From assembly GCF_000189635.1 (NCBI RefSeq), contig NW_002476315.1, forward strand, positions 3,567 to 67,566: DNA of 64,000 nucleotides, written 5' to 3'. Positions within the stretch are counted from its first letter, which is position 1. Each line of letters opens with the position of its first letter. Positions 811-43,580 of the stretch are shown here, piece by piece. The notes below the pieces were generated by a model, which was not told the DNA's origin, searched no databases, and saw only the letters and a list, made by a program, of their open reading frames with translations. The position numbers and the translations under genes were made by a program. This DNA is from Tetrahymena thermophila SB210. Lineage: Eukaryota; Ciliophora; Oligohymenophorea; Hymenostomatida; Tetrahymenidae.

Positions 811-3800
811 ATGATATAACAAACTGAATCCTATTACGACTTAGGAAAAGTAAAAGATATATTTATTTAATTATGATTTGAATTTATTTTTACTTTGAAA
901 AATAGTTTTTAAACTCTTCTTTATCTTCTCATTCTGATCTACTTATTGACCTGAGGTATTTATTTATATGAACTATGATATTATCAATTTTATTTAAAAA
1001 TTTATTTACTATCAAATAAGTTTATTGTTTGTTTTAAATCTTATTTTCTTATTTAAAAAAGTAAAAATAAAATATTATCATAAAAAACAGAAAATACATA
1101 CATAAAAACATAATTCTTATTTTTAATTTATTTTTAAATTATTAAATTGAGATATCTTTAATCAAAAATATAAATAGCTACTGCTAAATAGGAGATCATG
1201 GTGTTTAATAAATAAGTTCTGCTTTAAAATAATGTATTGAACTCTCAACTTTTAGAATAGATCTTGGGTAAATATTAACATAACATTTTTTTATTAAATA
1301 TTTTAAAAAATATTACTGTATGTATATTTGTCTAATTAATTACATCCAAAAAATTTTAAATTATCTATTTCTCCATTAAATTTTACATAAATTGTTTTTA
1401 ATTCCCTTTATATATAATTCCTTTTTGTTCGCCTAAATACTAATAGGTATAATTAAATAAGTAATGAGGGTGTATCATCTTTAATTTCTGCTCTGACTGA
1501 CTGCCCTAATCTCTCAGTTTTGTAACTTGATCTTTAGTAAAAATATAATAAAAATATTCAATTTTATTTATTAAAATTATTTTCCTTCCATTATCCTATC
1601 CATCTATCCTTGCCTTGTATGTTTTTTTTCAGCTTTAAATTTAAATTTACTAAAATAATTTATTTCTCATTTAAGATGAAATCAAATTTATTTTTATTTT
1701 ATTAAAAGCTAAAATAATATTAGTGAACTAGGTGCATAAAGTCTAAGCTGTGGTTTGAAAAAATTAGCTAAAATTTCAATATTAATTATCAATCTTGGGT
1801 AGAAATAAAATTTATTTATTTAATTAATTTAAAAATATATTTTTAAAATAAATGATTAAAAACTTAACATTTTAAAGAATTTATTTAGATATTTTATAAT
1901 GGTCATAACAAATTTTATATTATTTAATTAATATTTATTTTTTTATTTTTGACAATTAGCTTTAATTTAAAATTAAAAGATTGAATTAAATTGGTTCATA
2001 GGGTACATTAAACTTAGGCTCTGCTTTTTTGAACTGCAATAGTCTCTAAAGTTTAACTCTCAAACTCAAGTTAAAATTATTAAAATGCTTTAATTAATTT
2101 ACAATATTTAATAATTTAATTGCTAACTAAGAACAAAAATATATAAATAAATAACCAAATACATATATTTTATTAAAATAGTTTTGATCATATAAAAATT
2201 TTAATCTATTTATTTTTTAATGTCTATAAATCTTTAAGCTAATTACTTTAAATCCTATTAAATTTTCACCATATGAATTTAAAAATAATTAATTAATTGA
2301 TTTAAGCCAAAAAAGTGTTTTTTTTGGGTGAATATTTAAGGACAGAGAATATATAAGGATTTACAGCAATTAGATTTTATTTAATTTTAATATTTTTTTA
2401 ATTTATAAACAACTTATTAAATATAAAGCGATAATTAAATTGGATCATAAGGTCTATAAGGTTTAATCTCTAATTTAACAAGTTGCAGTAATCTTTCAAA
2501 TTTGACACTAATTCTTTTGTAAAATTAGTCAATTTTAATTTATTTTGTTTACCTATTTGTTTAATTTATGATAGGAAATTTACAGAAACCTCTTTTATAA
2601 CTTTTCTATTATATCCAATATTTATTCCTTTATCGCTTTTTGCTTTTTGATTTATCTCTTCTCTTTTTTTTATTAAAAATTTACAATTAAATTAATATTT
2701 ATTTTAAAATGAAAATAGTGAAAATTAAATCGATGATTCAAGCGTTTCTTGTTTAGTTTCTATTGGTGAAAATTGCTCTAAATTATAAAGTTTAAAACTA
2801 AATCTTGAGTTAAATGCTTTTATATATTTAAAATTACCATACTATTTACTCTATTTGTTAATAATTTATTTTTTTTAATTTAACTTTTATTTATTATTTT
2901 TAATAGATGCAACCAAATAGGTTCTATAGGAGTATCACATATAGGTTCTGCTTTGGCTAGTTATACTCATATCAAAACTCTGGATCTCTATCTATCGTAA
3001 AAAAATTATATATTTATTTATCAATTTTGAAAAGTTTTTGGCTTACTCTTTACTTTGTAATTTTTTTATATGTACTCTTTTATTTTATATTTTCACATTT
3101 TTGTATTAAAATTTAAAAAGCTAAAACAAATTAGGGTCATAAGGTGCATCATGCTTGGGCTCTTCTTTGAAAAGCTGCTATAACATATCAAAATTGAATC
3201 TTTCTCTAGGGTGAAAATTTATTTGACTTAATTTAGTATATTTAATTAAATAAATATTAAAAGTGATAATTAAATTGGGGTATAAGGAATATTAGATTTA
3301 GCTACATCTTTGGCAATCTGCAATAATCTCTAAAATCTAACAATCGATCTCTAGTAAAATGAATTATTTTGTTAATTTTCTTATTAGAAGACTGAAAACT
3401 AACTATCTCTTGGTTTAGTTTTAAAGCTTTTATTGTTACACTTTTATCAATTTACTTTTTTTTTAGTTCAGATTTCTTTCAATTTTTCATATACTTTAGA
3501 TTTTATTTAATTTGTCTTAATTTTTTATATATAAATAATTCTATTTTTAAATTTTTAAAAGCAATAATGGGATTGATGATGAAGGAGCTAGCGATTTGAT
3601 TTCTGCTTTATCAGACTGCACTAATCTCACTATTTTAGAGCTTTTGCTTCAGTAAAATATATACTTTATATTTATTGTAAAATTTATATTTATAAATTTA
3701 GTCTTATTTACTTATCTTTAAAGGCTTAATTTGAGCATAATTTTATTAAATTTATAAATAAAAAGTTACAATTTGTTAAGTGAAATTGGTAAAACGAAAC

Positions 3801-3856
3801 TGATCTTTCAGATCCTGAAATTTAAGAGATTAGTTTTCAAATAAATCTGCTTGTGA
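811..3856 (+). CDS. LRR tandem-exon gene A (ribonuclease-inhibitor-type repeats)
   Basis: Thirteen exons: 811-849, 906-955, 1178-1267, 1447-1536, 1709-1798, 1980-2069, 2429-2518, 2719-2808, 2907-2996, 3121-3210, 3264-3353, 3562-3651, 3781-3856; 354 codons plus TGA. The start is the ATG after an A-run and gives MIQQTESYYDLGK. Exon 2 gives a Ser-rich linker ending IDL. Each of the next ten 90-nt exons, with phase 2 introns on both sides, encodes one LRR of the form N-x-I-G-x-x-G-...-L-...-A-L-...-C-...-L-S-x-L-x-L-x-L. The last exon ends KFKRLVFKQICL. Donors are GTAAA, GTTAA, GTGAAA or GTATTT. LRRs are protein-binding scaffolds; no partner or location can be inferred and no signal peptide or membrane segment is evident. 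It is exon-by-exon paralogous to gene C but lacks five LRR exons. The exons differ from each other, so the array is old. Confidence 0.8.
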
Positions 3857-4279
3857 TTTTTTATATAAATTAACATATTTTATTTCATATAAAATAAAAA
3901 ACAAAATTGGAACTTGATACTTAAATACTTAATAAATACTACAAGTATATGTTTTATAATTGATGTACTATAAAAATCAATTTATTGTAATTCGTTAATA
4001 ATTAAAACCAAACATTTCTCTAAATTTTTTCCTATTTTTTTTGTTGAGAGGAATTAACTCATTTAAGTATATTAAATTTTTAAATTTTTAATTTTTTTAT
4101 TATATAAGCTATTTATTAACTAAAAAAAATATAAATTATAAAAATATAAAAAACAATAATTAAATCTATTAATAATTAAGGAGAAAAAACATTTTCAAAT
4201 TATTATATTATAAAACATATAATATTCAATTATTCAAACATTTAATATTTATTCATCTTTTTTCACCACTCATTTATCA
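3857..4279. other. Convergent intergenic between LRR genes A and B
   Basis: AT-rich 3' flank of both genes. The stretch 4190-4260 read on the minus strand resembles the shared LRR 3' flank seen at 1-80 and 18291-18370. No gene was seen. Confidence 0.6.
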
Positions 4280-7200
4280 TCAGAGTTATATTTTAAAGAC
4301 GACTAATCTTTTTGATTTAATATACTTACTTTTTACTTTGAATTCTTATTATTCATTCAATTTATTATAACTTTTTTTATAAATTTGTGTAAATTTTAAA
4401 TTAACATTAAATAAAATAAACTTTCAAATTAAAAATTTAAATTAATAAATAAAATAACATTAGCCGAATTAAAAAGATAAAAAAATAAATTATTAAAAAG
4501 CTATCAAATAAATTCAAAGAGTTTTGTTATTTTAAATCAGTTTTATAATTAAAAATATCACAATCCAAAATAAAAAAACTGTTTTTACTAAAGACCAAGT
4601 GTCAAATTTGAGAGATTGATACACTTTGCTAAAGCAGAACCTAAGCCTGATGCACCTTCATCACCAATTTTATTCCCACTTTTTAAATATTGAAGAAAAA
4701 ATAAAATTTAATTTGTTATTTAGATGGAAAAAATGAAGAAAAAATATGAAATAATAAGATTAATGAAAAATAAAAGCAAAAGTTAAAGATAAATAAAATG
4801 ATGAGTTAAATTAACAAAAAAAGAAGAAATAAAAGCAAGCAAGCACAATAAAAAGAAAAAGAAATATTAGCTTTATTGTTTTAAATTCGTTTTATAATTA
4901 AAAATATCACAATACAAAATAAATAAACTTTTTTACCGAATATCAAGTGTCAAATTTGAGAGATTAATGCACTTTGCTAAAGCAGAACCTAAGTCTGATA
5001 CACTTTTATCACCAATTTAATTTTTACTTTTTAAATATTGAAGAAAAAATAAATAATTAATTAGTTAGTTATTTAGAAGGAAAAAATGAAGAAAAAATTA
5101 GAAATAATGAAAAATAAAAGTAAAAGTTAAAAAAAAATAAATTGATGAGTTAAATTAACAAAGAAAGAAGAAATAAAAGCAAGCAAGCACTATAAAAAGA
5201 AAAAGAAAAATGAACTTTATTACTTTAAATTCGTTTTATAATTAAAAATATCACAATCCAAAATAAATAAACTGTTTTTACCTAAGATTAAGTATCAAAT
5301 TTGAGAGATTAATGCACTTTGCTAAAGCAGAACCTAAGTCTTATGCACCTGTTGCACCAATTTAATTTTTACTTTTTAAATATTGAAGAAAAAATAAAAA
5401 ATTAATTAGTTATTTAGAAGGAAAAAATGAAGAAAAAATATGAAATAGTAAGATTAATGAAAAATAAAAGCAAAAGTTAAAATAAATAAAATGATGAGTT
5501 AAATTAACAAAGAAAGAAGAAATAAAAGCAAGCAAGCATAATAAAAAGAAAAAGAAAATAGAGCTTTATTGTTTTATATTAGTTTTATAATTAAAAATAC
5601 AACAATCCAAAATAAATAAACTTTTTTACCGAAGATCAAGTGTCAAATTTGAGAGATTAATGCACTTTGCTAAAGCAGAACCTAAGTCTGATACACTTTT
5701 ATCATCAATTTAATTGTAACTTTTTAAATATTGAAGAAAAAATAAATAATTAATTAGTTATTTAGAAGGAAATAATATTAAATAATAAGATTAATGAAAA
5801 ATAAAGGGAAAGTTAAAAATAAATAAAATAATGAGTTAAATTATCAAAGAAAGAAGAAATAAAAGCAAGCAAGCACAATAATAAGAAAAAGAAAATAGAG
5901 CTTTTTATTTTAAATTCTTTTTATAATTAAAACTATCACAATCCAAAATAAATAAACTATTTTTACCTTAGATTAAGTGTCAAATTTGAGAGATTGATGC
6001 ACTTTGCTAAAGCAGAACCTAAGCCTGATGCACCTTCATCACCAATTTTATTCCCACTTTTTAAATATTGAAGAAAAAAATAATAATTAATTAGTTATTT
6101 AGAAAGAAAAAATATTAAATAATAAGATTAATGAAAAATAAAAGCAAAAGTTAAAAATAAATAAATTGATGAGTTAAATTAATAAAGAAAGAAGAAATAA
6201 AATCAAGCAAGCATAATAAAAAGAAAAAGAAAATTTTAAATTCGTTTTATAATTAAAAATATCATAATCCAAAATAAATAAACTGTTTTTACCTAAGATT
6301 AAGTATCAAATTTGAGAGATTAATGCACTTTGCTAAAGCAGAACCTAAGTCTGATGCACTTTTATCACCAATTTAATTTTTACTTTTTAAATATTGAAGA
6401 AAAAATAAATAATTAATTAGTTATTTAGAAGGAAAAAATATGAAATAATAAGATTAATGAAAAATAAAAGCAAAGGTTAAATAAATAAAATAATGAGTTA
6501 AATTAACAAAGAAAAAAGAAATTAAAGCTAGCAAGCACAATAATAAGAAAAAGAAAATTGAGCTTTATTGTTTTAAATTCGTTTTATAATTAAAAATATC
6601 ACAATACAAAATAAATAAACTTTTTTACCTAAGATCAAGTGATAAATTTGAGAGATTAATGCACTTTGCTAAAGCAGAACCTAAGTCTTATGTACTTTTA
6701 TCATCAATTTAATTTTTACTTTTTAAATATTGAAGAAAAAATAAATAATTAATTAGTTATTTAGAAGGAAAAAATATGAAATAATAAGATTAATGAAAAA
6801 TAAAAGCAAAAGTTAAAAATAAATAAAAAGATGAGTTAAATTATCAAAGAAAGAAGAAATAAAAGCAAGCACAATAAAAAGAAAGAAAAAAATGAGCTTT
6901 ATTGCTTTAAATTCGTTTTATAATTAAAAATATCACAATCCAAAATAAATAAACTGTTTATACTAAAGACTAAGTGTCAAATTTGAGAGATTAATGCACT
7001 TTGCTAAAGCAGAGCCTAAGCCAGATACACCTTTATCACCAATTTAATTGGAACTTTTTAAATATTGATTTAGAAGGAAAAAATGAAGAAAAAATATGAA
7101 ATAATAAGATTAATGAAAAATAAAAGCAAATGTTAAAAATAAATAAAATGGTGAGTTAAATTATCAAAGAAAGAAGAAATAAAAGCAAGCAAGCACAATA

Positions 7201-10200
7201 AAAAGAAAGAAAAAAATGAGTTTTATTATTATAAATTCTTTTTATTATTAAAAATATCGCAATTAAAATAAATAAAGTTTTTACCTAAGATCAAGTGTCA
7301 AATTAGAGAGATTAATGCATTTTGCTAAAGCAGAACCTAAGCCTGATACACCTTCATCACCAATTTAAATGGAACTTTTTAAATATTGAAGAAAAAATAA
7401 ATAATTAATTAGTTATTTAGATGGAAAAAATATGAAATAGTAAGATTAATGAAAAATAAAAGTAAAAGTTAAAAATAAATAAAATGATGAGTTAAATTAT
7501 CAAAAAAAGTAGAAATAAAAGCAAGCATAATAAAAAGAAAAAAAAAAAATCAGCTTTATTGTTTTAAATTCATTTTATAATTAAAAATATCATAATCCAA
7601 AATAAATAAACTGTTTTTACGAAAGACTAAGTGTCAAATTAGAGAGATTAATGCACTTTACTAAAGCAGAACCTAAGCCTGATACACCTTTATCACCAAT
7701 TTAATTGAAACTTTTTAAATATTGAAGAAAAAATAAATAATTAATTCGTTATTTAGAAGGAAAAAATATGAAATAATATAATTAATGAAAAATAAAGCTA
7801 AAGTTAAAAATAAATAAAATGATGAGTTAAATTATCAAAGAAAGAAGAAATAAAAGCAAGCATAATAAAAAGAAAGAAAAAATGAGCTTTATTGCTTTAA
7901 ATTCGTTTTATAATTAAAAATATCACAATTAAAATAATAAAAGTTTTTACCTAAGATCAAGTGTCAAATTTGAGAGATTAATGCACTTTGCTAAAGCAGA
8001 ACCTAAGCCTGGTGCACCTGTTGCACTAATTTAATTTTCACTTTTTAAATATTGAAGAAAAAATAAATAAAATGATGAGTTAAATTTACAAAGAAAGAAG
8101 AAATTAAAGCAAGTAAGCACAAAAAAAAGAAAAAGAAATATGAGCTTTATTGTTTTAAATTCGTTTTATAATTAAAAATATCACAATACAAAATAAATAA
8201 ACTTTTTTACCGAAGATCAAGAGTCAAATTTGAGAGATTAATGCACTTTGCTAAAGCAGAACCTAAGTCTGATGCACTTTTATCACCAATTTAATTTTTA
8301 CTTTTAAAATATTGAAGAAAAAATAAATAATTAATTAGTTAGTTATTTAGAAGGAAAAAATGAAGAAAAAATATGAAATAATAAGATTAATGAAAAATAA
8401 AAGCAAAAGTTAAAAAAAAATAAAAAGATGAGTTAAATTATCAAAGAAAGAAGAAATAAAAGCAAGCAAGCACTATAAAAAGAAAAATGAGCTTTATTAC
8501 TTTAAATTCGTTTTATAATTAAAAATATCACAATCCAAAATAAATAAACTGTTTTTACTAAAGACCAAGTGTCAAATTTGAGAGATTAATGCACTTTGCT
8601 AAAGCGGAACCTAAGCCTGATGCACCTTTATCACCAATTTAATTGAAACTTTTTAAATATTGAAGAAAAAATAAATAATTAATTAGTTATTTAGAAAGAA
8701 AAAATATGAAATAATAAGATTAATGAAAAATAAAAGCAAAAGTTAAAAATAAATAAAATGATGAGTTAAATTATCAAAGAAAGAAGAAATATAAGCAAGC
8801 ACAATAAAAAGAAAGAAAAAAATGAGCTTTATTGCTTTAAATTCATTTTATAATTAAAAATATCACAATCAAAAATAAATAAACTGTTTTTACTAAAGAC
8901 CAAGTGTCAAATTTGAGAGATTAATGCATTTTGCTAAAGCAGAGCCTAAGCCTGATACACCTTTATCACCAATTTAATTGAAACTTTTTAAATATTGTAG
9001 AAAAAATAAATAATTAAATAGTTATTTAGAAGGAAAAAATGAAGAAAAAATATGAATAAAATGATGAGTTAAATTAACAAAGAAAGAAGAAATAAAAGCA
9101 AGCATAATAAAAAGAAAAATGAGCTTTATTGTTTTAAATTCGTTTTATAATTAAAAATATCACAATCCAAAATAAATAAACTGTTTTTACCTAAGATTAA
9201 GTGTCAAATTTGAGAGATTAATGCACTTTGCTAAAGCAGAACCTAAGCTTGAAGCACCTGTTGCACCAATTTTATTGGAGCTTTTTTTTAAATAAAAAAT
9301 ATATAATTTATTAGTTATTTAGAAGGAAAAAATGAAGAAAAAATATGAAATAGTAAGATTAATTAAAAATAAAAGCAAAAGTTAAAATAAATAAAATGAT
9401 GAGTTAAATTAACAAAGAAAGAAGAAATAAAAGCAAGCATAATAAAAAGAAAAATAAAAATGAGCTTTATTGTTTTAAATTCGTTTTATAATTAAAAATA
9501 TCACAGTCCAAAATAAATAAACTGTTTTTACCTACTAAGATTAAGTGTCAAATTTGAGAGATTAATGCACTTTGCTAAAGCAGAACATAAGCCTGATGCA
9601 CCTGTTGAACCAATTTTATTGGAACTTTTTATTGAATAAAAAATATATAATTTATTAGTTAATTAGAAGGAAAAAATATGAAAAAATAAGATTAATTTAA
9701 TTAATAATTAGTTAAACTAACAAAGAAAGAAAAAAAATTAAGCAAGCACAATTAAAAGAAAAAGAAATAAAATAAATTAAAAGAGCTTTAATGTTTTAAA
9801 TTAAATTTTATAATTAAAAATATTAAAATCCAAAATAAAAAAATTGTTTTTATTAAGTGTAAGTGTTAATAGCAAAAAATGAAGAAAAAATATCAAATAA
9901 TAAAAAATGAATAATAAATAATTCAAAATTGAAATCAAAATTAAGTTGAAATTGCTAAAAATTTTTGTATAAATAGAAATTAATGAATAGTGGTGAAAAT
10001 TTCTATTATAAAAAATTATTTTTTTAAATAAATTGAAAGTTGAAATAAAAAAATTAAAAATATTTTTTATTTTAATATACTTTAGACTAATATGGAGAAC
10101 CTAATGAGATTAAAGTGAAGAGTTTAAAAACTTTTTTTATTAATTTATATAAATTTAAAGGATATTAATAAAAAAATTAATAATTACTTCTTCTAATTTG

Positions 10201-10226
10201 TTGTATTCTTTAATCTATTATACCAT
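4280..10226 (-). CDS. LRR tandem-exon gene B (16 near-identical repeat exons)
   Basis: Nineteen exons on the minus strand: first exon 10188-10226 (MVQQIKEYNKLEE), second 10081-10130, then sixteen LRR exons whose left ends are 9532, 9191, 8894, 8559, 8211, 7951, 7621, 7285, 6964, 6629, 6293, 5967, 5630, 5282, 4937 and 4589. All are 90 nt except the first of these, 9532-9624, which is 93. The last exon is 4280-4328, ending in a KSKRLVVF-like tail and TGA; 526 codons in all. A typical exon reads N-x-I-G-D-E-G-A-S-G-L-G-S-A-L-A-K-C-I-N-L-S-N-L-T-L. Introns are also nearly identical from unit to unit, which points to recent amplification or homogenisation. All introns between LRR exons are phase 2. 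It diverges from gene C across a shared 678-bp promoter region. Function is unknown beyond an LRR scaffold. Confidence 0.82.
4589..9624 (-). repeat. Tandem exon-plus-intron array (about 330-350 bp unit, 16 copies)
   Basis: The repeating unit contains the 90-nt LRR exon, a polypyrimidine-type acceptor region (AATATTTAAAAAG on the coding strand), a block with AAGCAAGC and GAAAGAAGAAAT (plus-strand orientation), and a donor-proximal block around CACAATCCAAAATAAATAAAC. Exon-to-exon spacings are mostly 321-348 bp. Two are short (260 between the exons at 7951 and 8211, 297 between 8894 and 9191), caused by deletions inside the intron. Sequence similarity extends through the introns, not just the coding part. 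Confidence 0.85.
9845..9872 (-). pseudogene. Vestigial LRR exon in intron 2 of gene B
   Basis: On the minus strand this reads as the last 20 or so bases of an LRR exon (ACACTTACACTTAA) joined to the usual intron start AAAAACAA. The donor GT is changed to AT and the rest of the exon plus its acceptor are missing. The conserved intron block (CCAAAATAAA) follows as in intact units. A similar scar occurs at the same place in gene E (38006-38038). Confidence 0.5.
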
Positions 10227-10904: not shown

Positions 10905-13900
10905 ATGATTTAAAAAACGCAATCCTTCTACGATTTAGAATAAGTAAAATATTTATTTGTTTAATTATGCTTCGAATTTATTTTTACTTTTAAAAATAGT
11001 TTTTGAGCTCATCTCTATCTTCTCATTATGATCTTCACATTGACCTCAGGTATATATATGAACTATGATATTATTATATTTATTTAAAAAATTATTTACT
11101 TTCAAATTAGGTTATAGCTTATTTTAAATCTTATTTTCTTATTTAAAAAACTAAAATAAAATAATAAAAAACTAAAAATACTTACATACATAATTCTAAT
11201 TTTTAATTATTTATTTGATATATCTTCAATAAAAATATACATAGCTACTGCTAAATAGGAGATCATGGTGTTTAATCAATAAGTTCTGCTTTAAAAAAAT
11301 GTATTAACCTCTCAACTTTTAGAATAGACCTTGGGTAAATTTTAATACCATGTTTTTTGTTTGTTTAAATATGTTAAAAAATAATTACTTATAAATTTGT
11401 CATATTAATTAAATACAAAAATTTTTAATTTTCCATTTCTTCATTTAATTTTATATTAGTTATTTTTAATTAGCTTTATATTATTCCTTTTTTGTTAGCC
11501 AAAATACTCATTTAAAAAATTTAAAAAGATCTAATTAAATAAGCAACGAGGGTGTAACAGCTTTAATTTCCGCTTTGGCTGATTTATCTAATCTCTCAGT
11601 TTTATAACTTGAACTTTAGTAAAAATAAGATGATAATATTCAGTTTTATTTAACAGAATTATTTTCCATTTATATTTTCTATACTTTTTTCTTTTTTTCA
11701 GTTTAATTTTTTAATTTTCTAAAATAAATTTATTTTAAATAAAAATTTACTTAAATTTTATTAAAAGCTAAAATAATATTAGTGAAATATGTGCATAAAG
11801 TCTAAGCTGTGCTTTGAAAAACTTAACTAAAATTTCGATATTAATTATCAATCTTGGGTAGAAATAAAATTAAATTAATTAATTCAAAATAATTTTTTAT
11901 ATTAAATGATTATAACATTTTAAGGAATTTATTTAGAAATATTACTATTATGATTTTAGATTAAATGGTCATAACAAATTTTATACTTTTAATAGCCATT
12001 TAATTAAGATTTCTCATTTTATTATTTGACAATTATCGTTGTTTTAAAAAATTAAAAGATATAATTAAATTGGTTCCTAGGGTACATTAAATTTAGGCTC
12101 TGCATTTGTGAATTGCAATAGTCTCTAAAATTTAACTCTCTAACTCAAGTTAAAATTATTAAAATGCTTTAATTTACAACACTTAATAATTTAATTGCTA
12201 ACTAAGAACAAAAATAAATAAAAAAATAACCAAAAATATTTTAAATAAATAAATAAATAAAGAGTTTTCTTCTTTTTAAAAATTTTAATCATTTTATTTT
12301 TTAATGTCTTTCAATTTTAAAATTAAATTAATTACTTTAAATTTTATTACATTTATTTTCACCCTATTATGGACAATTTAAAATTCTAATATAATTTATT
12401 TGGGTGAAATTTCAAATCTAAAAAAATTAAATTCAAGGTAATTTTTCATATTTTTTCATTAAAAATTAATCTTTCAAAAGATTCTTTATCAAGCAATACA
12501 AAAAAGTTTTTTTTAGGTGAATATTTAATTAAGTAAGTAAGAATTTAAAAGGATTTACAGCAATTAAATTTTATTTATTATGAATATTTTTTTAATTATA
12601 AATAACTCATTAAATATAAAGTGATAATTAAATTGGTTCATAAGGTCTATAAGGTTTAATCTCTAATTTAACTAGTTGCAGTAATCTTACAGATTTAACA
12701 CTAATTCTTTAGTAAAATTAGCCAATTTTAATTTATTTTAATCAATCATTTGTTTAATTTATGATAAAAAAGTTACAGAATCCTCTTTTATAACTTTTAA
12801 ATTATATGAAATATTTATTTATTATTTTTTGATATTATCACTTCTCTTTTAAATTAAAAATTAAATTAATATTTATTTTAAAATGATATTAGTCAAAATT
12901 AAATCGATGATTAAAGTGTTTCTGCTTTAGTTTCTATCGGTGAAAATTGCTCTAAACTATCAAGTTTAACACTAGATCTTGGGTAAAATGCTTTATATTT
13001 TTTAAATTAAATTACTTACTATCAACTCTATTTGTTTATAATTTATTTTTTTCAATTTAAAATTTATTTATTATTTTTAATAGTTGTAACTAAATTTGTG
13101 CTTAAGGAGTATCACACATGGGTTCTACTTTGGCTAAATTTACTCATATCAAAACTCTGAATCTATATCTATAGTAAAAAAAATTTTATTTATTAATAAG
13201 TTATGAAAAATTTTTGGCTAACTATTAACTTTTTAATTTTTATTATTTGTACTCTTTTACTTTATATTTTCATATATTTTTATTAATTTTTAAAAAAGCT
13301 AGAACAAATTAGGGTCATAAGGCACATCGTGTTTGGGTTCTTTGTTGAAAAGCTGCAATAATATATCAAAATTAAATCTTTCTCTAGAGTGAAAAATTTG
13401 TTTGATTTAATTTAATATATTTAAAAAACTTCTTAAATTAACCCTTCCAGCTAAAATATTTGCTTGTTTTGTTAAATTTATAATTTATAATTTATTTATT
13501 TCTTTGCTTATAAATTGATTTTTTAGTTAAAAAACAAATAAATAATTAAAATAAATTTTAATAGTGAAAATTAAATCGGGGTATAAGGAATATCAGATTT
13601 AGCTACTTCTTTGGCAATCTGTAATAATCTCTAAAATTTAGCAATCCATCTGAAGTAAAATGAATTATTTTATTAATTTTCTTATCAAAGAAGGCTGATA
13701 AATTAACTAACTATATTTATTGGTTTTGTTTAAAAGCTTTTATTATTACATTTTTGATCAATTTATTTATTTAATTTTTCATATATTTTAAATCTTATTT
13801 AATTTATCTTAAACTTTTTTATTTTATAATAATTTTATTTTTTTACTTTTCAAAGCAAAAATGAAATTGATGATGAGGGTATTAGAGCTTTGATTTCAGA

Positions 13901-15802
13901 TTTATCAGAATGCACAAATCTCTGTATTTTAGAACTTTCGCTTCGGTAAAAAATCTATTTTTTGTGAAATTTATATTTGCTAAAAGGATAGATAGATAGA
14001 TAGATAGATAAACTACATTTGCTTTGTTTTACATTTTTGCTTTCAATTTTTTTAAATCCGAATTTCATGTTAGCCTAGCCTATTTTTTATATATTTTATT
14101 TAAATATTTAATTTTTTTGTTTAAATTTATAATATAAAAATTTATTTGAAGTAATAACTAAATTGGTGAATAAGGCGTTTCAGGTTTAGATTCTATTTTC
14201 TTAAAGTATAAAAAACTGTCAACATTTAATATTGACCTAGGGTAAAATAATTTTTACTTCTGTTCAGATTATTTTGTTTTTAATATTAAAATTTTTATTT
14301 TTTTAATAAGTCTGATAGCTAATATTGCATTTTTATTACATTTTATTTTAAAATAATTTGATTGTTATAATGAAAATAATATTAAAATAAATTTGAATAT
14401 ATAAAAAGTGGAAATTAAATTGGTGCTACTGGTATTTAAAGCTTAAGTACATCTATTAGAAACTGTTCAAATCTATCAAATTTAACTTTAGCGCTTTAGT
14501 AAATTAATTTATTTGATTATTTTATAATTAAATATCAAAACTAAAAATTTTTATTTGGTTTTAAATTGATTTTTAGTTTTACGTTTTTTTTTTGTTCTAA
14601 TTTTATAACTAACTTTCATATTTTAATTTATTTCACTGTAACATGATTTTGCTAATTTTTTTTTCTATTCAAAAATATTAAAAGCAACTGTTAAATTGGT
14701 ACATAAGGTGTAAAAGATTTACCTCTGGCATGCTATTCTAATCTACAAAGTTTAAGTATCATCTTAGGGTAATGAGTTTATTTGATTTGTTTTTGTTAAT
14801 TAAAATTAATATACTTGAAACCTATAACTAAGTGATAATTAATATTCAAAAGTATTAAATTAAAAATTTTCACAAAAAATCCTCTAAAAAGTTTATTTTG
14901 GGCAGATATGTTAAAATGATTATTCCTCATTAATAAATTTATATTGATATTAGTATTTTTAGAAAATAATTAAGAAATAGTTAATAATAAAAAGAAATGT
15001 TACAAAGAATTTTTAAAATCTATACTAATTTTAATATAAACAGAAAAGCGAAAATTGTTAAATTTTAAAGAAAAGAAAATAGTTTGATATGAATGTCGAT
15101 ATACAAAATTTTATTATAACTTCAATTTGTAATTTTAAAATTGATAAATAAATATCCTCTTTATTTTCATATAAGCTTATTAAATTAAAAATTTTTATAA
15201 TAAGTTTGAATTAAATTGACGATGTGGGTGTTTCTAATTTAGGTTCTGCTTTGGAAAATTGCACCATTCTCTTCGATTTGAAATTGTATTTAGGGTAAGC
15301 ATATTTATTTTATAATATTTTATTGTATTATTTTTTTATAAAATTCTGTGGTTTTATCATTTATAACATAATTCCTAAGTTAAGTTAATTATTTTAATTT
15401 ACTCTTGTCACCTGTTTTTTCATAATAAGTAACACACACACACATATTATATAAAAGCTAAAATTAAATTGGTGACCAAGGTGCTTAAAATTTAGTCTTA
15501 AGTTTGGCAAACTGCTCCAGTATCTTAACTTTATTGCTTGAAATTGAGTAAAAATATCTTCTTTACTTTATTAAATAACTTATTAAAAATTACCAAAAAA
15601 TATTTTTTCATTTGGCAGTTTACTTTTTATTCACAATTAATTAGTTTATATATTTATTTTTAAATGCTTAATTTTATTTAGTATATTTTTAATTAATTAA
15701 TAAATAATAAGATAAAATTAATTAAGTGAAGTTGGTAAAACAAAATTAACCTATCAGATCCTCAAATTTAAGAGATTAGCTTTCAAATAAATTAGCTTGT
15801 GA
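10905..15802 (+). CDS. LRR tandem-exon gene C (15 repeat exons)
   Basis: Eighteen exons: 10905-10943, 11000-11049, 11245-11334, 11529-11618, 11768-11857, 12059-12148, 12622-12711, 12893-12982, 13084-13173, 13299-13388, 13565-13654, 13856-13945, 14152-14241, 14409-14498, 14685-14768, 15205-15294, 15458-15547, 15727-15802; 502 codons plus TGA. The exons through 13945 pair one-to-one with those of gene A, as does the last exon (KFKRLAFKQISL), so A and C are sister copies. The five exons between 14152 and 15547 have no match in A. One of them, 14685-14768, is only 84 nt, a shortened repeat that still keeps the frame. All LRR exons are bounded by phase 2 introns. The repeats are more divergent than in B or E. 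LRR scaffold; partner unknown. Confidence 0.8.
13987..14010. repeat. GATA microsatellite
   Basis: Six perfect GATA units lie in an intron of LRR gene C. Confidence 0.9.
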
Positions 15803-25197: not shown

Positions 25198-25792
25198 CTT
25201 TTTTGAATGTTATTTAATTTTTTTAATTCTAAAAAATAATAATTAAAAAATCAATGAAGAAAGAATATAATGCAACAAATTCTTTGATAATAAAAATTTA
25301 AAAAATTTCTAGTAAAAATTCATAAATTTTTTACTACTTTTTTTTTGGGGAGTAAAACTTAAGATGATATCAAATATTTTACTCAAATTATAGTTAAATT
25401 ATTTAAGAATTTATATTTTTTTGTTTTAATGAAATAAATTTTGGTATTTTAGAAAAAATGTTTAAAAATATCATTTACAAATATAAATGATGTCATAAAC
25501 TTTACATTTAATTTTTTTATGTTGTGCTATTAAAGATATTCATGATAAAATTGACGAAAAATATTTGCTTAACTATCTATCTTTGAATGGATACAGAAAA
25601 TAAATCTCATGTTTACATTTTTATTTTCTTGTTGATTAAACTAAATAAAATCTTATGATTAGTTATTCAATAATCACAATTAATTGGGTACTATCTTCTT
25701 AAAATTGTTATTGATAAACAAATTAATTACAAATTTCACTAAAAGATTTATTCTAAAGATTTATTTATATATTAGAAAGTAAGTATTAAAGA
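25198..25792. other. Divergent intergenic, 595 bp
   Basis: Promoter region between the minus-strand coiled-coil gene and the plus-strand acylase-like gene. AT-rich with no specific site recognised. Confidence 0.5.
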
Positions 25793-34176: not shown

Positions 34177-37100
34177 TCAGAAATATACTTAGAAGACAAC
34201 TAATCTTTTTGATTTAAGACACTCGCTTTTTGCCTTGAATTTTTATTATAGATTCATTTAGTTATCACTTTTATTATAAATTTGTGTAAAGTTTAAATAA
34301 ATATTATAATAAAAAACAAATCAAATAAAATCAAACAAATAAATTCAAAGTGTTTTTTTGTTTTGTTTTATTCATTTTAATAATTAAAACAATCCAAAAC
34401 CAATAAACTGCTATTACCAAAGATTAAGTATCAAATATGAGAGATTAATACAATTTGCTAAAGCAGAACCTAAGCCTAAAGCACCTTCTTCATCAATTTA
34501 ATTGTCACTTTTTAAATATTGAAGAAAAAAAAATATTTAAAAAGTTAATTAGAAGGAAAAAATGAAGAAAAAATATGAAATAATAACATTAATTAATAGT
34601 AAAAGTAAAATTTAAAAATAAAATGATGAGTTAAATTAACAAAAAAAGAACAAAAAAAAAGCAAGCACAATAGAAAGAAAAACTAAAAAGAACTTTTTTC
34701 TTTTAAATTAGTTTTTATAATTAAAAATATCACAATCCAAAACCAATAAACTGCTATTACTCAAGGCTAAGTGTCAAATATGAGAGATTAATGCAATTTG
34801 CAAAAGCAGAACCTAAACCTGATGCACCTTTAGCACCAATTTAATTGGAACTTTTTAAATATTGAAAAAAAAATATTTAATTAAATAGTGAATTAGAAGG
34901 AAAAAATGAAGAAAAAATATGAAAAAATAAGATTAATTAATTAATAATTAAAGCAAAAGTTGAAAATAAAATGATGAGTTAAATTAACAAAGAAAGAAGA
35001 AAAAAAAGCAAGAATCACAATAAAAAGAAAAAGAATAAAAAAGAGCTTAATTGTTTTAAATTAGTTTTTATAGTTAAAAATAGCACAACCCAAAACAATA
35101 AACTTCTATTACCTAAGTTTAAGTGTCAAATTTGAGAGATTAGTGTAATTTGCTAAAGCAGAACCTAAATCTGATGCACATTTATCATCAATTTAATTGC
35201 CACTTTTTAAATATTGAACAAAAAATAAATAATTAAATAGTTAATTAGAAGGAAAAAATGAAGAAAAAATATAAATGATAAAATTAATAAAAAAATCAAA
35301 AGTTGAAAAAAAATTGATGAGTTAAATTAACAAAGAAGGTAGAAAAAAAAGCAAGTAAGCACAATAAAAAGAAAAAGAAAAAAGAGCTTTATTGTTTTAA
35401 ATTACTTTTTATTGTTAAAATTATGACAATCCAAAACCAATAAACTGCTATTACTCTAGGTTAAGTGTCAAATTTGAGAGATTAATGCAATTTGCTGAAC
35501 CAGAACGTAAACCTAATGCACTTTTACTACCAATTTGATTGTAACTTTTTAAATATTGAAGAAAAAATAAATTATTAAATAGTTAATTAGAAGGAAAAAA
35601 TGAAGAAAAAATATGAAATAATAAATAAGATTACTTAATTAAGAATAAAACAAAAGTTGAAAATAAAATGGTGAGTTAAATTAGCAAAGAAAGAAGAAAA
35701 AAAAGCAAGCATAATAAAAAGAAAACAAACAAAAAAGGCTTAATTATTTTAAATTAGCTATTATATTTAAAAATATCACAATCAAAAACAAATAAACTGC
35801 TATTACTTAAGATTAAGTGTCAAATTTGTTAGATTAATGCAATTTGCTATACCATAACCTAAATCTTATCCACCTTAATCACCAATTGTATTGACACTTT
35901 TTAAATATTGAAGAAAAAATAAATAATTAAATTGTAAATTAGAAGGAAAAAATGAAGAAATAATATGAAATAATAAAATTAATTAATTAATAAAAAAAGC
36001 AAAAGCTGAAAATAAAATGTTGTGTTAAATTAGCAAAGAAAGAAGAAAAAAAAGTAAGCAAGCTCAATAAAAAGAAAAAAAAGCTTTATTTGTTTTAAAT
36101 TAGTTTTTATAATTAAAAGTATCACAATCCAAAATAAATAAACTGTTTTTACAAAAGGTAAAGTGTCAAATTTGAGAGGTTAATGCAATTTGCTATACCA
36201 TAACCTAAGCCTGATGCCCCTTCATCACCAATTCTATTGAAACTTTTTAAATATTGAAGATGAAATATATAATTAAATAGTTAATTAGAAGGAAAAAATG
36301 AAGAAAAAATATTAATTAATAAGATTAATAAATTAATAATAAAAGCAAAAGTTTAAAATAAAATGATGAGTTAAATTAGCTAAAAAAGGAGAATAAAAAG
36401 CAATCAAGTACAATAATAAAAAAAAAGAGCTTTATTGTTTTAAATTACTTTTTAAAATTAAAATTATGACAATCCAAAACCAATAAATTGCTAATACTCA
36501 AGATCAAGTGTCAAATTTATGAGATTAATGCAATTTGCTATACCAGAACCTAAGCCTGATGCACCTTCATCACCAATTCTATTTTCACTTTTTAAATATT
36601 GAAGAAAAAATATATAATTAAATAGTTAATTGGAAGGAAAAAATGAAGAAAAAATACGAAATAATAATTATTATTATTAATACTTGACACAGAAAAATAT
36701 AAGCTAAGCAAAAAAATTTTTTTATATATTTTTAATAGATTATTAATAAATTAATTAAAACTGAGTTTTACTTTTTTTGGGGGGGGGGGGGGAATTTTTT
36801 TTTTAATAAAGAATCTAAGAAATAATAAGATTAATTAATTAATAGTAAAAGAAAAATTTAAAAATATAATGATGAGTTAAATTAACAAAGAAAGAACAAA
36901 AAAAAGCGAGCACAATAAAAAGAAAAAGAAAAAAGCTTAATTGTTTTAAATTAGTTTTTATAATTAAAATTATGACAATCTAAAACCAATAAACTGCTAT
37001 TACTCAAGGCTAAGTGTCAAATTTAAGAGATTAATGCAATTTGCTAAACCAGAGCCTAAACCTGATGCACCTTCATCACCAATTCTTTTGTCACTTTTTA

Positions 37101-38391
37101 AAAAATGAAGATAAAATATAAAATTAAATAGTAAATTAGAACGAAAAAATGAAGAAAAAATATGAAATAATATGATTAATTAATTAATAATAAAAGCAAA
37201 AGTTGAAAATAAAATGTTAAATTAAATTAACAAAGAAGGAATAAAAAAAAAAAGCATCAAGCACAATAAAAAGAAAAAAGGCTTAATTGTTTTAAATTAG
37301 TTTTTATAATAAAAAATAGCACAATCCAAAACTAATAAACTGCTATTACCTAAGTTTAAGTGTTAAATCTGAGAGATTAATGCAATTTACTAAACCAAAA
37401 CCTAAGCCTGATGCATCTATTGCACTAATATAATTCTACCTTTTTAAATATTGAAGAAAAAATATATCATTAAATAGTTAATTAGAAGGAAAAAATTAAG
37501 AAAAAATATGAAATAATAAGATTAATTAATTAAAATGATGAGAGAGTTTAATTAGCAAAGTAAAGACAATATAAAGAAAAAGAAAAAAGAGCTTAATTAT
37601 TTTAAATTAGTTTTTTTGTTAAAAATATCACAATCCAAAACAAATATACTATTTTTACCCAACATAAAGAGCCAAACTTGAGAGATTAATGCAATTTTTT
37701 AAAGCAAGACCTAACCGTGATGCACCCATTGCACCAATTTCATCTGAACTTTTTAAATATTGAAGAAAAAATATATAATTAAACAATGAATTATAAGAAA
37801 AAATGAAGAAAAAATATGAAATAATAAGATTAATTAATTAATAATAAAAGCAAAAGATGAAAATAAAATGATGAGGGAGTTAAATTAATAAATAAAAAAG
37901 AAAAAAAAAAAGCACAATTAAAAGAAAAGGAAAATAAATAAAAAGATCTTTAATGTTTTAAATTAATTTTTTTTATTAAAATTGTTACAATCCAAAATAA
38001 ATGAACTGTTTTTATCAAGTATAAATAAATATTAATAACGAAAAATGAAAAAACAAAAAAAATAATAATTAATTAAAAATTGAAATGAAAATTAAGTAAA
38101 AATAGCTAAAAAATTTTTGTTTTAATAAAAATCAATGAATAATGATTAGAATTTCTATTAGAAAAAAATTTCTTTAAATAAATTGAAAGTTAAATACATA
38201 AAAAGTATTAATAAAATAAAAATAATATTTATAAAATAAATATACGTCAGATCAATATGGAGAATCTAATGAGATAAAAGTGAAGAGTTTAAAAACTTTT
38301 TTTATTAAAAGATATCAATTTAAAGGATATTAATAAAAAAATTAATAATTACTTCTTCTAATTTGTAATATTCTTAAATCTATTATATCAT
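34177..38391 (-). CDS. LRR tandem-exon gene E (ten repeat exons)
   Basis: Thirteen exons on the minus strand: 38353-38391, 38246-38295, then LRR exons 37659-37748, 37350-37439, 37004-37093, 36498-36587, 36153-36242, 35807-35896, 35455-35544, 35113-35202, 34761-34850, 34418-34507, and the last exon 34177-34225; 345 codons plus TGA. All ten LRR exons are 90 nt with phase 2 boundaries and near-consensus repeats (IGDEGASGLGSGLANCINL type). The last exon gives LKSKRLVVF. The introns carry the same blocks as in genes B and D. One intron is enlarged by an insertion with a 14-G run (36658-36828), and intron 2 carries a vestigial exon. It lies head-to-tail with gene F. Confidence 0.82.
36658..36828. 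repeat. Insertion with 14-G run, flanked by a 10-bp direct repeat
   Basis: GAAATAATAA occurs at 36658-36667 and again at 36819-36828; neighbouring LRR introns have this sequence once. The extra 161 bp contain 14 consecutive G (36779-36792) next to T-runs, unlike anything else in the window. It could be a small mobile-element remnant with a target-site duplication, a repair insertion, or an assembly artefact. Confidence 0.6.
38006..38038 (-). pseudogene. Vestigial LRR exon in intron 2 of gene E
   Basis: Read on the minus strand, it shows a TACTTGAT remnant of an exon end fused to the normal intron start AAAAACAGTT; acceptor, most of the exon and the donor GT are lost. Its position matches the scar in gene B (9845-9872), suggesting inheritance from a common ancestor. 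Confidence 0.45.
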
Positions 38392-38817: not shown

Positions 38818-41800
38818 TCAGAAATTTATTATAAACAAAATTAATCTTTTTAATTTGAGAAACTTACTTTTTACTTTCAATTATTATGATTCGTTGATTA
38901 TATTTGCACTTTTAACATAAATTAATGTGAATTACTAAAAAATTAAATAGACTAAAATAAAAAAATAAAATATTATCTTTTAAATGAATAAATAAAAATA
39001 AAAATAAATCAAATAAAAAGCTAATAAATAAATTAAAAGAATAAGTTAGTAAAATTGTTTTAAATTCATTTTTATATTCAAAAACATCATAATCCAAAAC
39101 AAATAAACTATTTTTACTCTAGACTAAGTACCAAATTTGAGAGATTAGTGCAGTTTGATAAAAGAGAACCTAATCCTGATGCACCAATTGCGCTAATATA
39201 ATTAGACCTTTTAAAATATTTACGAAAAAATATATTGCTAATTAGTTAGTAATAGTAAATAATGAAGAAAAAATATTAAATAATAAGAAATAAATTTATT
39301 AATAATAAAACTAAAGTTAAAAATTAGTTAAATTAACAAAGAAATAAAATAAAAAATTCAAGAAAAATAATCAAATAAATAGCTTATCAATAAATAAATT
39401 AAAAGAGTTAGTTATATTATATGTTTTAAATTCATTTTTATTTTCAAAAATATCACAATTCAAAACAAATAAACTGTTTTTACTCAAGAACAAGACTTAA
39501 ATTTGTGAGATTAGTGCAGTTTGCTAAACCAGAACCTAAGCCTTATGTACCTTCATCACGAATTTAATTAGATCTTTTTAAACATCGAAGAAAAAATAAA
39601 TAATTAGCTAGAAGGAAAAAATGAAGAAAAATAAATATGAAATAATAAGAAATGAATTAAATAAATAATAATAAAATTAAAATTTTAAACTTATAAATAA
39701 GTTAAATTAATAAGAAAAAAAGAAAAAAATACAAGCAGAATTTTAAAAAAAACAAAAATAAATCAAATAAAAAGCTAATAAAAAAATAAATTAAAAGAGT
39801 TTGTTTTATTGTTTTGAATTTATTTTTAAATTCAATAATATCAAAATCACAATAAATAAACTATTTTTACCCAAGATAAAGTGTCAAATTTGAGAGATTA
39901 GTGCAATTTGCAAGAGCAGAACCTAAGCCTGATGCACCAATTGCACCAATTTAATTCAACCTTTTTAAAATATTTAGAAAAAATATAAAGGAAAAAATGA
40001 AGAAAAAATATGAAATAATTAGAAATTAATTAATTAATAATAAATGAAAATATTGAAAATAAAAAAATGAGTTAAATTAACAAAGAAAGAAAACAAAAAC
40101 ATAAGCAAAATCAAAAAAACAAAATAAATCAAATAAAGCTAATAAATTAAAAAGCAAATTTATATTTTTATATTAATTTTTACATTAAAAATATCACAAT
40201 CTAAAATAAATAAATAGATAAATAAATAAATAAATAAATGTATTTACCTAAGATCAAGTGTCAAATTTGAGAGATTAGTGCAATTTACTAAAGCAGAGAC
40301 TAAGCCGAATGCACCTTGATCACCAATAGAATTTAATCTTTTTAAATATTGTAGAGAAAATATAAAGTTCATTCGTTTAAGGAAATAATGAAGAGAAAAC
40401 ATTAAATCTTAGTAATTTAATAAATTTAAAATAAATAAAAAATTTGAAAATGAAATAATGAATTAAATAAACAAAAAAATACAAACTAAATAAAAAATAG
40501 AAAAATAAATCAAAGAAATATTTAATAAATAAATGAAGAGAGTTTATTTTTTTGTTTTAAATTCAAAAATATTACAATCCAAAACAAATAGACTGTTTTT
40601 ACCTAAGATAAAGCTCGAAATTTGAGAGATTAATGTAGTTTGTTAAAGTAGAACCTAATTCTGATGCTCCAACTCCACCAATTTAATTTAAACTTTTTAA
40701 ATGTTGAAGAAAAATATAGTTAGCCAATCATTTTGCTTGCTAGTTAGAAGGTAAAAATGAAGAAAATAAAAAGATAAATAAAAATGGTTAGTTATAAATG
40801 AAAAGTTAAAAATTAATTAGAAAATAAATGAGTAAATTAACAAACAAAGAAAAAAAGCTCAAACATAATAAAAAAAAGAATAATAAGTAAAGTAAAATAA
40901 AAATCTATTTTTTTTAAGTTCATTTTTATATTAAAAAATATCATAATCCAAAACAAATAAACTTTTTTACCGAAGATCAAGTATCAAATTTGAAAGATTA
41001 GTGCAGTTTGCTAAGGCATAACCTAAGCCAGATGTACCTTCATCACCAATTTAATTTTACCTTTTTAAATATTGAATAAAAAGGATTTAATTAGTTAGTT
41101 TGAAATGAAAGAAAAAATATGAAATAATAAGAAATTAATTAATTAATATTAAAGTAAAATAAATTTAAAAATTTTAAATTAGTTAAATTAAGAAAGAAAA
41201 AAAATAAAAGTAGAGTAAAAAAAAGAAAAATAAATCAAATAAAGAACTAATAAATAAATAAATTAAAAGAGTTTTTTTGTTTAAATTCATTTTCAAAACA
41301 AATTAATTGTTTTTACGCAAGATAAAGCGTCAAATTTGACAGATTAGTGCAGCTTGCTAAAGAAGAACCTAAGTCTGTCACACCAATTGCACCAATGTAA
41401 TTAGACCTTTTAAAATATTTAAGTAAAATTATACAGACAATTAGTTAATTAGAATTAAAAAATGAAGAAGATAATATTAAATGATATTACTAATAATAGA
41501 AAAAGTTGAAAATAAGAAAATTAGTTAAATTAACGAAGAAAGAAAAGAAACACATATAAAATATAAAAACAAATCAAATAAAGAGCTCATAAATAAATTA
41601 TAGGAGTTAGTAATATTGTTTTAAATTCTTTTTTATTAAAAATATAAAAATCCAAAATAAATAAACTGTTTATTTTTACTGAAAATTAAGTGTCAAATTT
41701 GAGAGATTAGCGCAATTTGCTAAACTAGACCCTAAGCCTTACATACCTTTGTCACCAATTTAATTTACTCTTTTTAAATATTGAAAAAAAAAATTGTTTT

Positions 41801-43580
41801 AAATTCATTTTTATTTTCAATAAAATCAAAATCAAAACAAATAAACATATTTTACCTAAGATCTAGTGTCAAATTTGAGAGATAAGTACAGTTTGCTAAA
41901 CCAGAACCTAAGCCTGATGCACCTTCGTCGCCAATTTAATTACACCTTTTTATTTTTGATGAATAAAGATATAGTTAATTTGAAGAAAAAAAGAAGAAAA
42001 AATATGAAATAAAGGAATTCATTAATTAATTAGACAGATGATAAAAATAAAAAAATGATTTAAATTAACAAAGAATGAAAAAAAAATACAAGTAGAATAA
42101 AAATAGGAAAAATAAATCAAATAAAAAGCTAATAAATAAATTAAAAGGGTTAGTTTTATTATTTTAAATTCATTATTATATTAAGAAATATTTCACAATT
42201 TAAAACAAATAAACTGTTTTTACATAAGATTTAGTGTGAAATTTGAGAGATTAGTACAGCTTGCTAAAGCAGAACCTAAGCAATATGCTCCTCTTACACC
42301 AATTTAATTAGACCTTTTTAAATATTAGAAAGAAAAAAAATATTTAATTAGTTGGTTTGAGGTAAAAATTTAGAAAAAATTAAATAATTAATAATAAAAG
42401 CAAAAGAAAGCTCAAAATTTTAAAATGAGTAAAATTAACAAGGAATGAAAAAAAACACAAGCAAAATAATAAAAACAAATAAATAAATTTAAAGAGTTTT
42501 ATTTTTTTTAAACTCATTTTTAAATTAAAAAATATAACTTTTTACGCAAGATCAAGGCTTAAATTTGAGAGATTAGTGCAGTATGCTAAAGCAAAACTTA
42601 AGCATGATGCACCTTCATCATCAATTAAATTAGACCTTTTTTAATATTGAAGAAAAAGTATAGTTAGTTAGTTAGTTAAAAGGAAAAAATCAAGAAAAAA
42701 TAAATATGAAATATTAACAAATGAGTTAATTAATAATAAAAGTAAAATTTGAAATCAAAAAAATGAGCTAAATTAACAAAGAAAAAAAAAAGCAAAATAA
42801 AAAAGAAAGAAAAATAAATCAAATAAAATTCTATTGTTTTAAATTCATTTTTATATTAAAAAATATCAATATCCAAAACAAAAAAACATTTTACTGTAGA
42901 TCAAGTGTCAAATTTGAGAGATTAGTGCATTTTCCCAAACCAGAACAAAAACCTGATACACCTATTGCTCGAATTTAATTTAAACTATTTAAAAATTGAA
43001 GAAAAAATATATTGTTTGTTAATAAGTGTTATTCAGAATTAAAAAATAAATTAAAAATATAAAATAATAAAAAATGAATTAATAAATCAATCAATCATAA
43101 TTAAAGCAAAAGTTGAAAATGAAAAAATAAGTTTAATGAACAAAGAAAGAAAGAAAAAAACACAAACAGAAAAAACAAAAAATGAAATAAGTACTATTAG
43201 TTTTCCATTTTTAAATAATGAAGAAAAAATAAAAAGTATGAAAAAATGAAAAAAAAATATCAAATAATAAAAAATAAATAAATAATTAATTAATTAATAA
43301 TCAAAATAAAAATTAAATTAAAACAATTTTAAAAAATATTTCAATAAATAAAAATGAATGAAAACTATGAAAATTTCTATTAAAAAAATTAAATTGTAAA
43401 TAGCTTGAAAATGAAATATAATAAAAGAATATACTTCAGAGAAATATGGAGAACCTAGTGAGATTAAAGTGAAGAGTTTAAAAACTTTTTTTATTAATAA
43501 AATTTAATTTAAATAATATCAATAAAAAAATAAATAATTACTTCTTTTAAATTGCTAAAATATTTTTTCTATTATATCAT
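38818..43580 (-). CDS. LRR tandem-exon gene F (twelve repeat exons)
   Basis: Fifteen exons on the minus strand: 43542-43580 (MIQQKKYFSNLKE), 43435-43484, LRR exons 42895-42984, 42546-42635, 42224-42313, 41856-41945, 41680-41769, 41317-41406, 40971-41060, 40603-40692, 40248-40337, 39871-39960, 39484-39573, 39118-39207, and last exon 38818-38866; 405 codons plus TGA. All LRR exons are 90 nt with phase 2 boundaries. They are more varied than in B or E (second position often Ser-Asn or Leu-Asn; ISAIGASGLGSLLSNCTNL type), and the tail LKLKRLILF differs slightly. Introns vary from 86 to about 280 nt. It shares the 5' flank type of B, D and E. LRR scaffold of unknown partner. Confidence 0.8.
40208..40240. 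repeat. (TAAA)n microsatellite
   Basis: TAAA units with one TAGA interruption, in an intron of LRR gene F close to a donor site. Confidence 0.8.

Follow-up and report, generated by a model that had tools for sequence, protein, structure and literature searches.

Hypervariable codons at predicted exposed positions in a modular leucine-rich repeat gene family of Tetrahymena thermophila

Introduction

When every repeat of a leucine-rich repeat (LRR) gene family is carried on its own exon of nearly constant length, which parts of the repeat vary, and what does this variation suggest about the proteins? This question is raised by a gene cluster at positions 811 to 43,580 of a 64,000-nucleotide stretch of Tetrahymena thermophila SB210 (assembly GCF_000189635.1, contig NW_002476315.1, positions 3,567 to 67,566, forward strand), which is called the window throughout. 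A first-pass annotation of the window had described six such LRR genes as a machine for varying a binding surface and had called the family known in outline in Tetrahymena. This was right. The main text of Xiong et al. 2019 (PMC6564038) describes thousands of Tetrahymena LRR genes with exons of exactly 90 bp and phase 2 introns, and proposes unequal crossing-over. As both the gene class and the exon plan are published, their detection in the window is not a new finding. Site-level hypervariability within the repeat appears to be new relative to Xiong et al.; the evidence for it is strong and held-out tested, and comes from one genome and from non-randomly chosen loci. The explanation favoured here, with a probability of about 0.65, is that these genes encode intracellular LRR binding proteins whose concave face would be under diversifying selection, aided by conversion.

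Results

LRR exons were detected by a profile scan of open AG-90nt-GT frames under genetic code table 6, and other exon lengths were scanned separately. The window contains 67 LRR exons, all in phase 2, and 65 of these are 90 nt long. The only two of another length, 93 nt (9532-9624, minus strand) and 84 nt (14685-14768, plus strand), lie where the first-pass annotation had placed them. The two strands of the window hold 164 open AG-90-GT frames, of which 65 score above 20 against a profile that was trained on 45 of the same window exons; ten single-strand Markov shuffles yielded 542 such frames, none scoring above 0.

The predicted spliced models reproduce the shared plan that had been proposed, namely head exons of 39 and 50 nt, a run of LRR exons, and a short last exon, in intact form in 6/6 genes. 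The LRR exon counts of 10, 16, 15, 4, 10, and 12 in genes A to F are exactly those given before. All models are free of internal stops, have a length that is a multiple of three, use only GT-AG introns, and together include 67/67 LRR exons. The 39-nt exon is followed by phase 0 and the 50-nt exon by phase 2 in every gene. The last exon measures 91 nt in A, B, C, E, and F and 94 nt in D, with the tail acceptor, for which each gene offers several candidates, chosen as the one common to all genes. Because the tail exon starts in repeat register, it looks like a terminal cap. A 90-nt exon comprises 29 whole codons and two split codons, so the exon borders fall inside the LxLxxN strand motif. The six models, with protein lengths in amino acids (aa), are as follows.

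811..3856, plus strand: gene A, older type; exons 811-849 (39 nt) and 906-955 (50 nt), ten 90-nt LRR exons within 1178-3651, tail 3766-3856 (91 nt); 359 aa
4280..10226, minus strand: gene B, young type; heads 10188-10226 and 10081-10130, 16 LRR exons (first 9532-9624, 93 nt; last 4589-4678), tail 4280-4370; 540 aa
10905..15802, plus strand: gene C, older type, paralogue of A with additional exons 11-15; heads 10905-10943 and 11000-11049, 15 LRR exons (84-nt exon 14685-14768), tail 15712-15802; 507 aa
16628..18292, plus strand: gene D, young type; heads 16628-16666 and 16716-16765, four LRR exons, 94-nt tail 18199-18292; 180 aa
34177..38391, minus strand: gene E, young type; heads 38353-38391 and 38246-38295, ten LRR exons, tail 34177-34267; 359 aa
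38818..43580, minus strand: gene F, young type, with a Pfam LRR_6 match; heads 43542-43580 and 43435-43484, twelve LRR exons, tail 38818-38908; 419 aa

On sequence comparison, the six genes form two subfamilies, an older one (A, C) and a young one (B, D, E, F). Mean intron pair identity within a gene is 0.81 in B, 0.61 in D, 0.70 in E, and 0.60 in F, against 0.47 (sd 0.12) for shuffled introns; A (0.44) and C (0.49) stand at the shuffled level and thus contain no nucleotide-level repeats. Heads and tails divide the genes in the same way. Identity over the 200 nt upstream is 73-92% among B, D, E, and F and 86% between A and C, compared with a mean of 0.64 and a maximum of 0.72 in 30 control pairs.

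The young type is abundant beyond the window. Searches of 101 Mb in 445 contigs, allowing up to three mismatches, found at least 291 matches to its head motif, at least 426 to its tail motif, and at least 3,082 to a 37-nt repeat stretch; the reversed-pattern controls gave 0 each. Twenty loci, each a stretch of no more than 10 kb, were sampled at head matches near the top of the best 100 of 291, and this choice makes the sample biased to close matches rather than random. These loci follow the window plan. Among 31 head rows, which include the window and some repeats because L012-L014 overlap, AG and GT flank the 50-nt exon in 31/31, a 39-nt ATG exon is present in 26/31 (not found in 5), and a tail in 23/31 (none found in 8; one called tail, in L006, is doubtful), with 0 to 15 ninety-nt exons per row. 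In the window and L002-L023 without L014, 284 of 291 LRR-exon cores lie in intact 90-nt phase-2 exons, three are in-frame variants, and four have no acceptor. No stop-bearing exon was recorded among 255 chained exons, in which overlapping loci are counted twice.

Divergence was measured in 242 young-type exon-plus-intron units, 39 from the window and 203 from the loci. Units with introns outside 150-330 nt or a profile score of 30 or less were left out, as were loci L001-L003 and L014 (which overlaps L013). Intron length in the units kept has a mode of 255-259 and a median of 252 nt. Introns were alignable in 2,721 of 29,161 unit pairs. In every divergence class the exons differ more than the introns: 0.131 vs 0.040 (118 pairs), 0.164 vs 0.080 (1,646), 0.184 vs 0.113 (944), and 0.200 vs 0.158 (13). 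This is the opposite of what purifying selection on exons would give. The excess sits in codons 1, 3, 6, 7, and 28 and in the last two exon bases, while conserved codons differ at 0.05.

Seventy disjoint closest pairs taken from the 242 units showed this clearly. Codons 1, 6, 7, and 28 differ at 0.464 per nucleotide, compared with 0.062 in the intron and 0.073 (100/1367) at silent third positions elsewhere; they exceed intron divergence in 68/70 pairs and silent divergence in 68/70. When pairs were picked by exon identity, codons 1, 3, 6, 7, and 28 stood at 0.282 and introns at 0.083, with the exon more divergent in 60/73. In the five closest pairs, introns differ at 0.014 and silent sites at 1/106, yet 1.8 of 4 hypervariable residues differ. 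Once the hypervariable codons and the junction bases are set aside, four exons of L013 on the minus strand (units 2256, 3277, 3965, and 4312) are identical over the remaining 72 nt; their hypervariable residues are WKAMD, SQDEG, SQDED, and QKDEV, which differ pairwise at between one and five positions.

Circular choice of codons was countered by picking them on window units and testing them on the loci. In this held-out test (58 pairs), the picked codons, with 11 and 9 among the top five in place of 3 and 7, differ at 0.361, compared with 0.062 in introns and 67/1065 (0.063) at silent sites. Strand codons 1 and 28 alone give 0.477 for the 58 locus pairs and 0.500 for the nine window pairs (8/9). 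A bias from picking pairs with low intron divergence is too small to explain the excess: when pairs were chosen on one half of the intron, the other half stood at 0.078-0.092, still below codons 1, 3, 6, 7, and 28 (0.41-0.48). As a separate observation on base composition, 52% of the 242 units have C as the last base of codon 1; most other codons end in T or A, and codons 11, 19, and 22 are also C-rich.

The placement of these codons on the protein can be predicted from the repeat, which has 30 residues and the pattern L22xxL25xL27x28L29x30x1N2x3I4x5x6x7G8. It corresponds to the RI/RanGAP-like LRR pattern, in which an LxxLxLxxNxL strand-turn segment is accompanied by a helix. Pfam LRR_6 matches F (E 5.3e-25) and C (E 4.6e-22), and a PDB search with F returned nine sequences, including RanGAP (1k5d/1yrg, E 7.7e-7) and dynein regulatory complex subunit 5. 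In the alignments of F with 9y6s and 8j07, the query has two extra residues before the strand end. Among the divergent sites, codon 28, the split junction codon, and codon 1 occupy x positions of the strand motif L-x-L-x-x-N. Positions x28, x30, and x1 are taken here to lie on the concave face, as in RI-like LRRs, and x6-x7 presumably lie in the loop after the strand. The models of A-F hold only head, repeats, and tail, and no ROC-COR or NACHT/NB-ARC domain was found in F and C, the two of the six proteins that were scanned. By hydropathy, none of A-F has a strongly hydrophobic segment (highest 19-residue mean 1.61), which points to a cytosolic location. The tails of A-F carry a charge of +4 to +6.

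Whole repeats have also been gained or lost. Exons 1-10 of A align one-to-one with exons 1-10 of C, with 80-94% identity on the diagonal; A is without C exons 11-15, and the tail is common to both. The 3' half of the last A intron matches the last C intron (score 27.5, null mean 16.5, 0/300 shuffles as high; p at least 0.16 for the other 14 introns), and its 5' half matches none of the C introns significantly (best p 0.06). As a control, 17 of 18 halves of A introns 1-9 ranked their own C partner first; the failure was the 3' half of A intron 8, for which C intron 15 was also ranked first, weakly. Together, the exon and intron matches suggest an in-frame gain or loss of five complete exons as one block, one end of which lay in an intron or close to it. 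A third paralogue was sought with C 13856-15802 (40 of 612 candidates scored, 130 matches listed). Among the matches listed, only A, besides C, gave both the tail and exon 10, the rest being single-unit or shorter, so the block may have been either gained or lost.

The earlier idea that unequal crossing-over adds or removes repeats is supported by A and C as far as in-frame change of whole repeats goes; crossing-over itself is a presumed route, and conversion or retrotransposition could have had the same result. Alignable introns of the young genes diverge by 0.065-0.071 within genes (1-8 units apart) and by 0.094 between genes, whereas exons within young genes diverge by 0.18-0.20. Such low within-gene intron divergence looks as it would under concerted evolution.

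Discussion

Each gene would encode a stand-alone, probably cytosolic RI/RanGAP-like LRR solenoid. A fixed N-cap (13 + 16 aa) and a fixed, basic C-cap would enclose a variable number of interchangeable repeats of 30 residues, each encoded by its own exon. Whole repeats may be moved in frame by recombination within the similar introns, and conversion from other units may bring in new codon states. Diversifying selection on the concave face would then keep the putative binding residues different, which would yield hundreds of proteins with differing faces. The exposure of the variable positions and the binding of ligands are likewise predictions of this explanation. As a guess, the proteins could recognize prey, microbes or microbial products, or partners; Xiong et al. 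2019 suggest bacterial recognition or the neutralising of digestion products as roles.

The phrase 'machine for varying a binding surface' therefore needs to be divided. It is supported for the young type, in which the presumably exposed strand positions are hypervariable, and here the amino acid data are stronger than the exon counts. It is not supported between A and C, which show no such excess. The dN/dS check that had been recommended at exposed positions was made within one genome. The nonsynonymous divergence (dN) of codons 1, 3, 6, 7, and 28 is 5.8 times the synonymous divergence (dS) of the other codons, yet omega inside the hypervariable codons is only 0.91.

Several results weigh against continuing selection on the concave face as a full account. 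Between A and C (10 exon pairs), the hypervariable codons differ at 0.167, silent sites at 40/239 (0.167), and introns at 0.134. NG86 omega has a 95% interval of 0.70-1.16 inside the hypervariable codons, is 1.13 (0.96-1.30) for the whole exon, and reaches 1.53 (1.19-2.03) in intermediate codons and 0.54 (0.37-0.75) in conserved codons. Where the two codons compared in a disjoint pair are both pyrimidine-ending, their silent bases differ in 7/35 cases at codon 1 and 15/56 at codon 28. Raised silent change together with omega of 0.91 and 1.13 is not predicted by selection on point mutations alone. The two halves of an intron are only weakly linked, which makes intron divergence an imperfect clock. 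The compared units mostly occupy different positions in the protein, so part of the difference may reflect one-time fitting to position. The 20 loci come from the top of the head-match list, and Xiong et al. 2019 give Ka/Ks below 1 for gene pairs.

Other tests bear on how the codons change. In held-out comparisons at codons 1 and 28 in which both units of the pair have an NNY (pyrimidine-ending) codon, positions 1-2 differ in 54/78 cases and the silent base in 19/78. Two or three bases differ in 149 of 253 differing hypervariable codons. Since positions 1-2 outpace a silent base that is itself raised, amino acid change leads, with a contribution from multi-base replacement, perhaps conversion from other units. 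Random hypermutation of whole codons is disfavoured: the silent bases of codons 1 and 28 are raised, but they change less than the amino-acid-changing bases. By mutual information (MI), codons 6-7 form linked haplotypes (D-E, D-K, A-M, A-T, A-I; z 19). The other tested pairs among codons 1, 6, 7, and 28 are unlinked (z -0.7 to 0.8), and codon 1 is weakly linked with codon 3 (z 2.9) and with the junction (z 2.3). As a group, silent sites close to the hypervariable codons show no clear increase (25/354 near vs 38/649 far). Individually, silent change is higher in codon 8 when codon 7 differs (224/1667 vs 36/516) and in codon 27 when its neighbour differs (94/1976 vs 12/580), and lower in codon 2 when codon 1 differs (146/2240 vs 27/223). 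Old alleles with hitch-hiking are therefore only disfavoured, because the near sites show no clear rise as a group but codons 8 and 27 go up and codon 2 goes down.

Among the alternatives, position-wise functional diversification survives best, although it is rather improbable. Here each duplicated repeat becomes fitted a single time to its position in the solenoid and is then fixed, with no continuing arms race. It would account for the lack of excess between A and C when compared position by position, and it is compatible with the fact that 45 of the 70 closest pairs join units of one locus and strand. It fits poorly with runs of units compared across genes, whether the offset is the same or shifted: in the 14 lowest of 200 such runs, none a proven collinear duplicate, codons 1, 6, 7, and 28 differ at 0.25-0.60 and mean intron divergence is 0.049-0.066.

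Less plausible still, and quite unlikely, is a localised mechanism, such as short-tract conversion or templated or targeted mutation, that speeds change in these codons while selection only filters the products. The five closest pairs, which differ in hypervariable residues on an almost unchanged background, agree with it, as do the frequent two- and three-base differences, the raised silent sites in codons 1 and 28, the linked states of codons 6-7, and the response of codon 8 to codon 7. The bias to amino-acid-changing bases in the NNY codons 1 and 28 argues against it, as does the absence of a clear rise at neighbouring silent sites as a group. A broader version, equally a long shot, is a ciliate with hundreds of modular LRR genes in which a localised process would renew the concave-face codons while introns and scaffold are homogenised, giving a germline-encoded, continually refreshed recognition repertoire. 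Neutral repeat arrays, in which selfish exon-intron units expand without protein constraint, would explain the high copy number and the similar introns but are very improbable given 284/291 intact cores, the lack of stop-bearing exons among the 255 chained exons (overlapping loci counted twice), and conserved codons that differ at 0.05 with omega 0.54 (95% 0.37-0.75) while codons 1, 6, 7, and 28 differ at 0.46.

If diversifying selection on the concave face is the better account, the family can be read as binding proteins that vary most, within the locus, at the residues presumed to bind, and not merely as species-specific genes under relaxed purifying selection. The hypervariable sites name the residues to test, and they make the ligand question experimental.

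Neighbouring sequences

1..316, plus strand: sequence resembling the 3' flank of gene D, with 74% identity over the alignment, and that of gene B, with 72%; a further LRR gene therefore probably ends just upstream of the window
19946-24325, plus strand: open frame of 1459 aa, with no Pfam match at E 0.01
24697-25470, minus strand: open frame encoding near-identical units of about 18 residues repeated in tandem (EMLKQQQENNNKYLKMQE), coiled-coil-like
26552-27697, plus strand: open frame with a Penicillin amidase domain (E 5.5e-73), adjoining the LRR cluster
46982-48532, minus strand: Peptidase M20 family gene
59685-60887, plus strand: protein kinase gene

Comparison with known systems

The window genes share with the class of Xiong et al. 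2019 (PMC6564038) the 90-bp exons, phase 2, arrays of at least three, variable exon number, and the general lack of a transmembrane domain. Group III of that report, considered young, has nucleotide-level intragenic repeats, introns near 257 bp, a pericentromeric or subtelomeric germline location, and an association with REP retrotransposons. The young window genes agree with it in repeats and intron length (median 252 vs 257 bp), B (0.81) and E (0.70) more clearly than D (0.61) and F (0.60). Group II, the older one, has 90-bp exons without nucleotide-level repeats and introns near 56 bp. A and C resemble it in lacking such repeats, but their introns between LRR exons range from 53 to 473 nt and are mostly far from 56. 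The exon lengths of head and tail and site-level diversity are not described in the main text of that report, where Ka/Ks is read as purifying selection; positive selection, hypervariable sites, solvent, and a 39-bp or first exon are also not mentioned in the main text. Among the literature matches listed, judged by titles and the starts of abstracts, no other paper dealt with the exon plan of the Tetrahymena 90-nt LRR family.

Of the other systems, the LRR-ROCO family of brown algae comes closest (Teng et al. 2024, PMC11378527); for it, 72-bp phase 2 exons, exon shuffling, and positive selection at four concave-side sites are described. Both families have one LRR per exon, a single exon length, phase 2, and variation on the concave side, which in the window genes is a predicted location. 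LRR-ROCO differs in its shorter repeat, its attached ROC-COR, and its alternative splicing; no ROC-COR was seen in the F and C proteins scanned here.

NLRC and NLRP proteins carry LRR domains with attached signalling domains. They are similar to the window genes in that an exon encodes one LRR (NLRC) or two (NLRP) and exon borders fall at a constant point of the beta-sheet, and differ in repeats of 28-29 residues compared with 30 here (PMC6642158). Lamprey variable lymphocyte receptors (PMC3900441) likewise combine caps, several repeats, and a variable concave face. In contrast, they are extracellular and are diversified somatically by a deaminase-linked, conversion-like process, whereas the window genes show no hydropathy sign of secretion or anchoring and nothing that points to somatic assembly. 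On the favoured explanation, a free-living protist would join brown algae and lampreys among the lineages whose LRR concave faces are variable.

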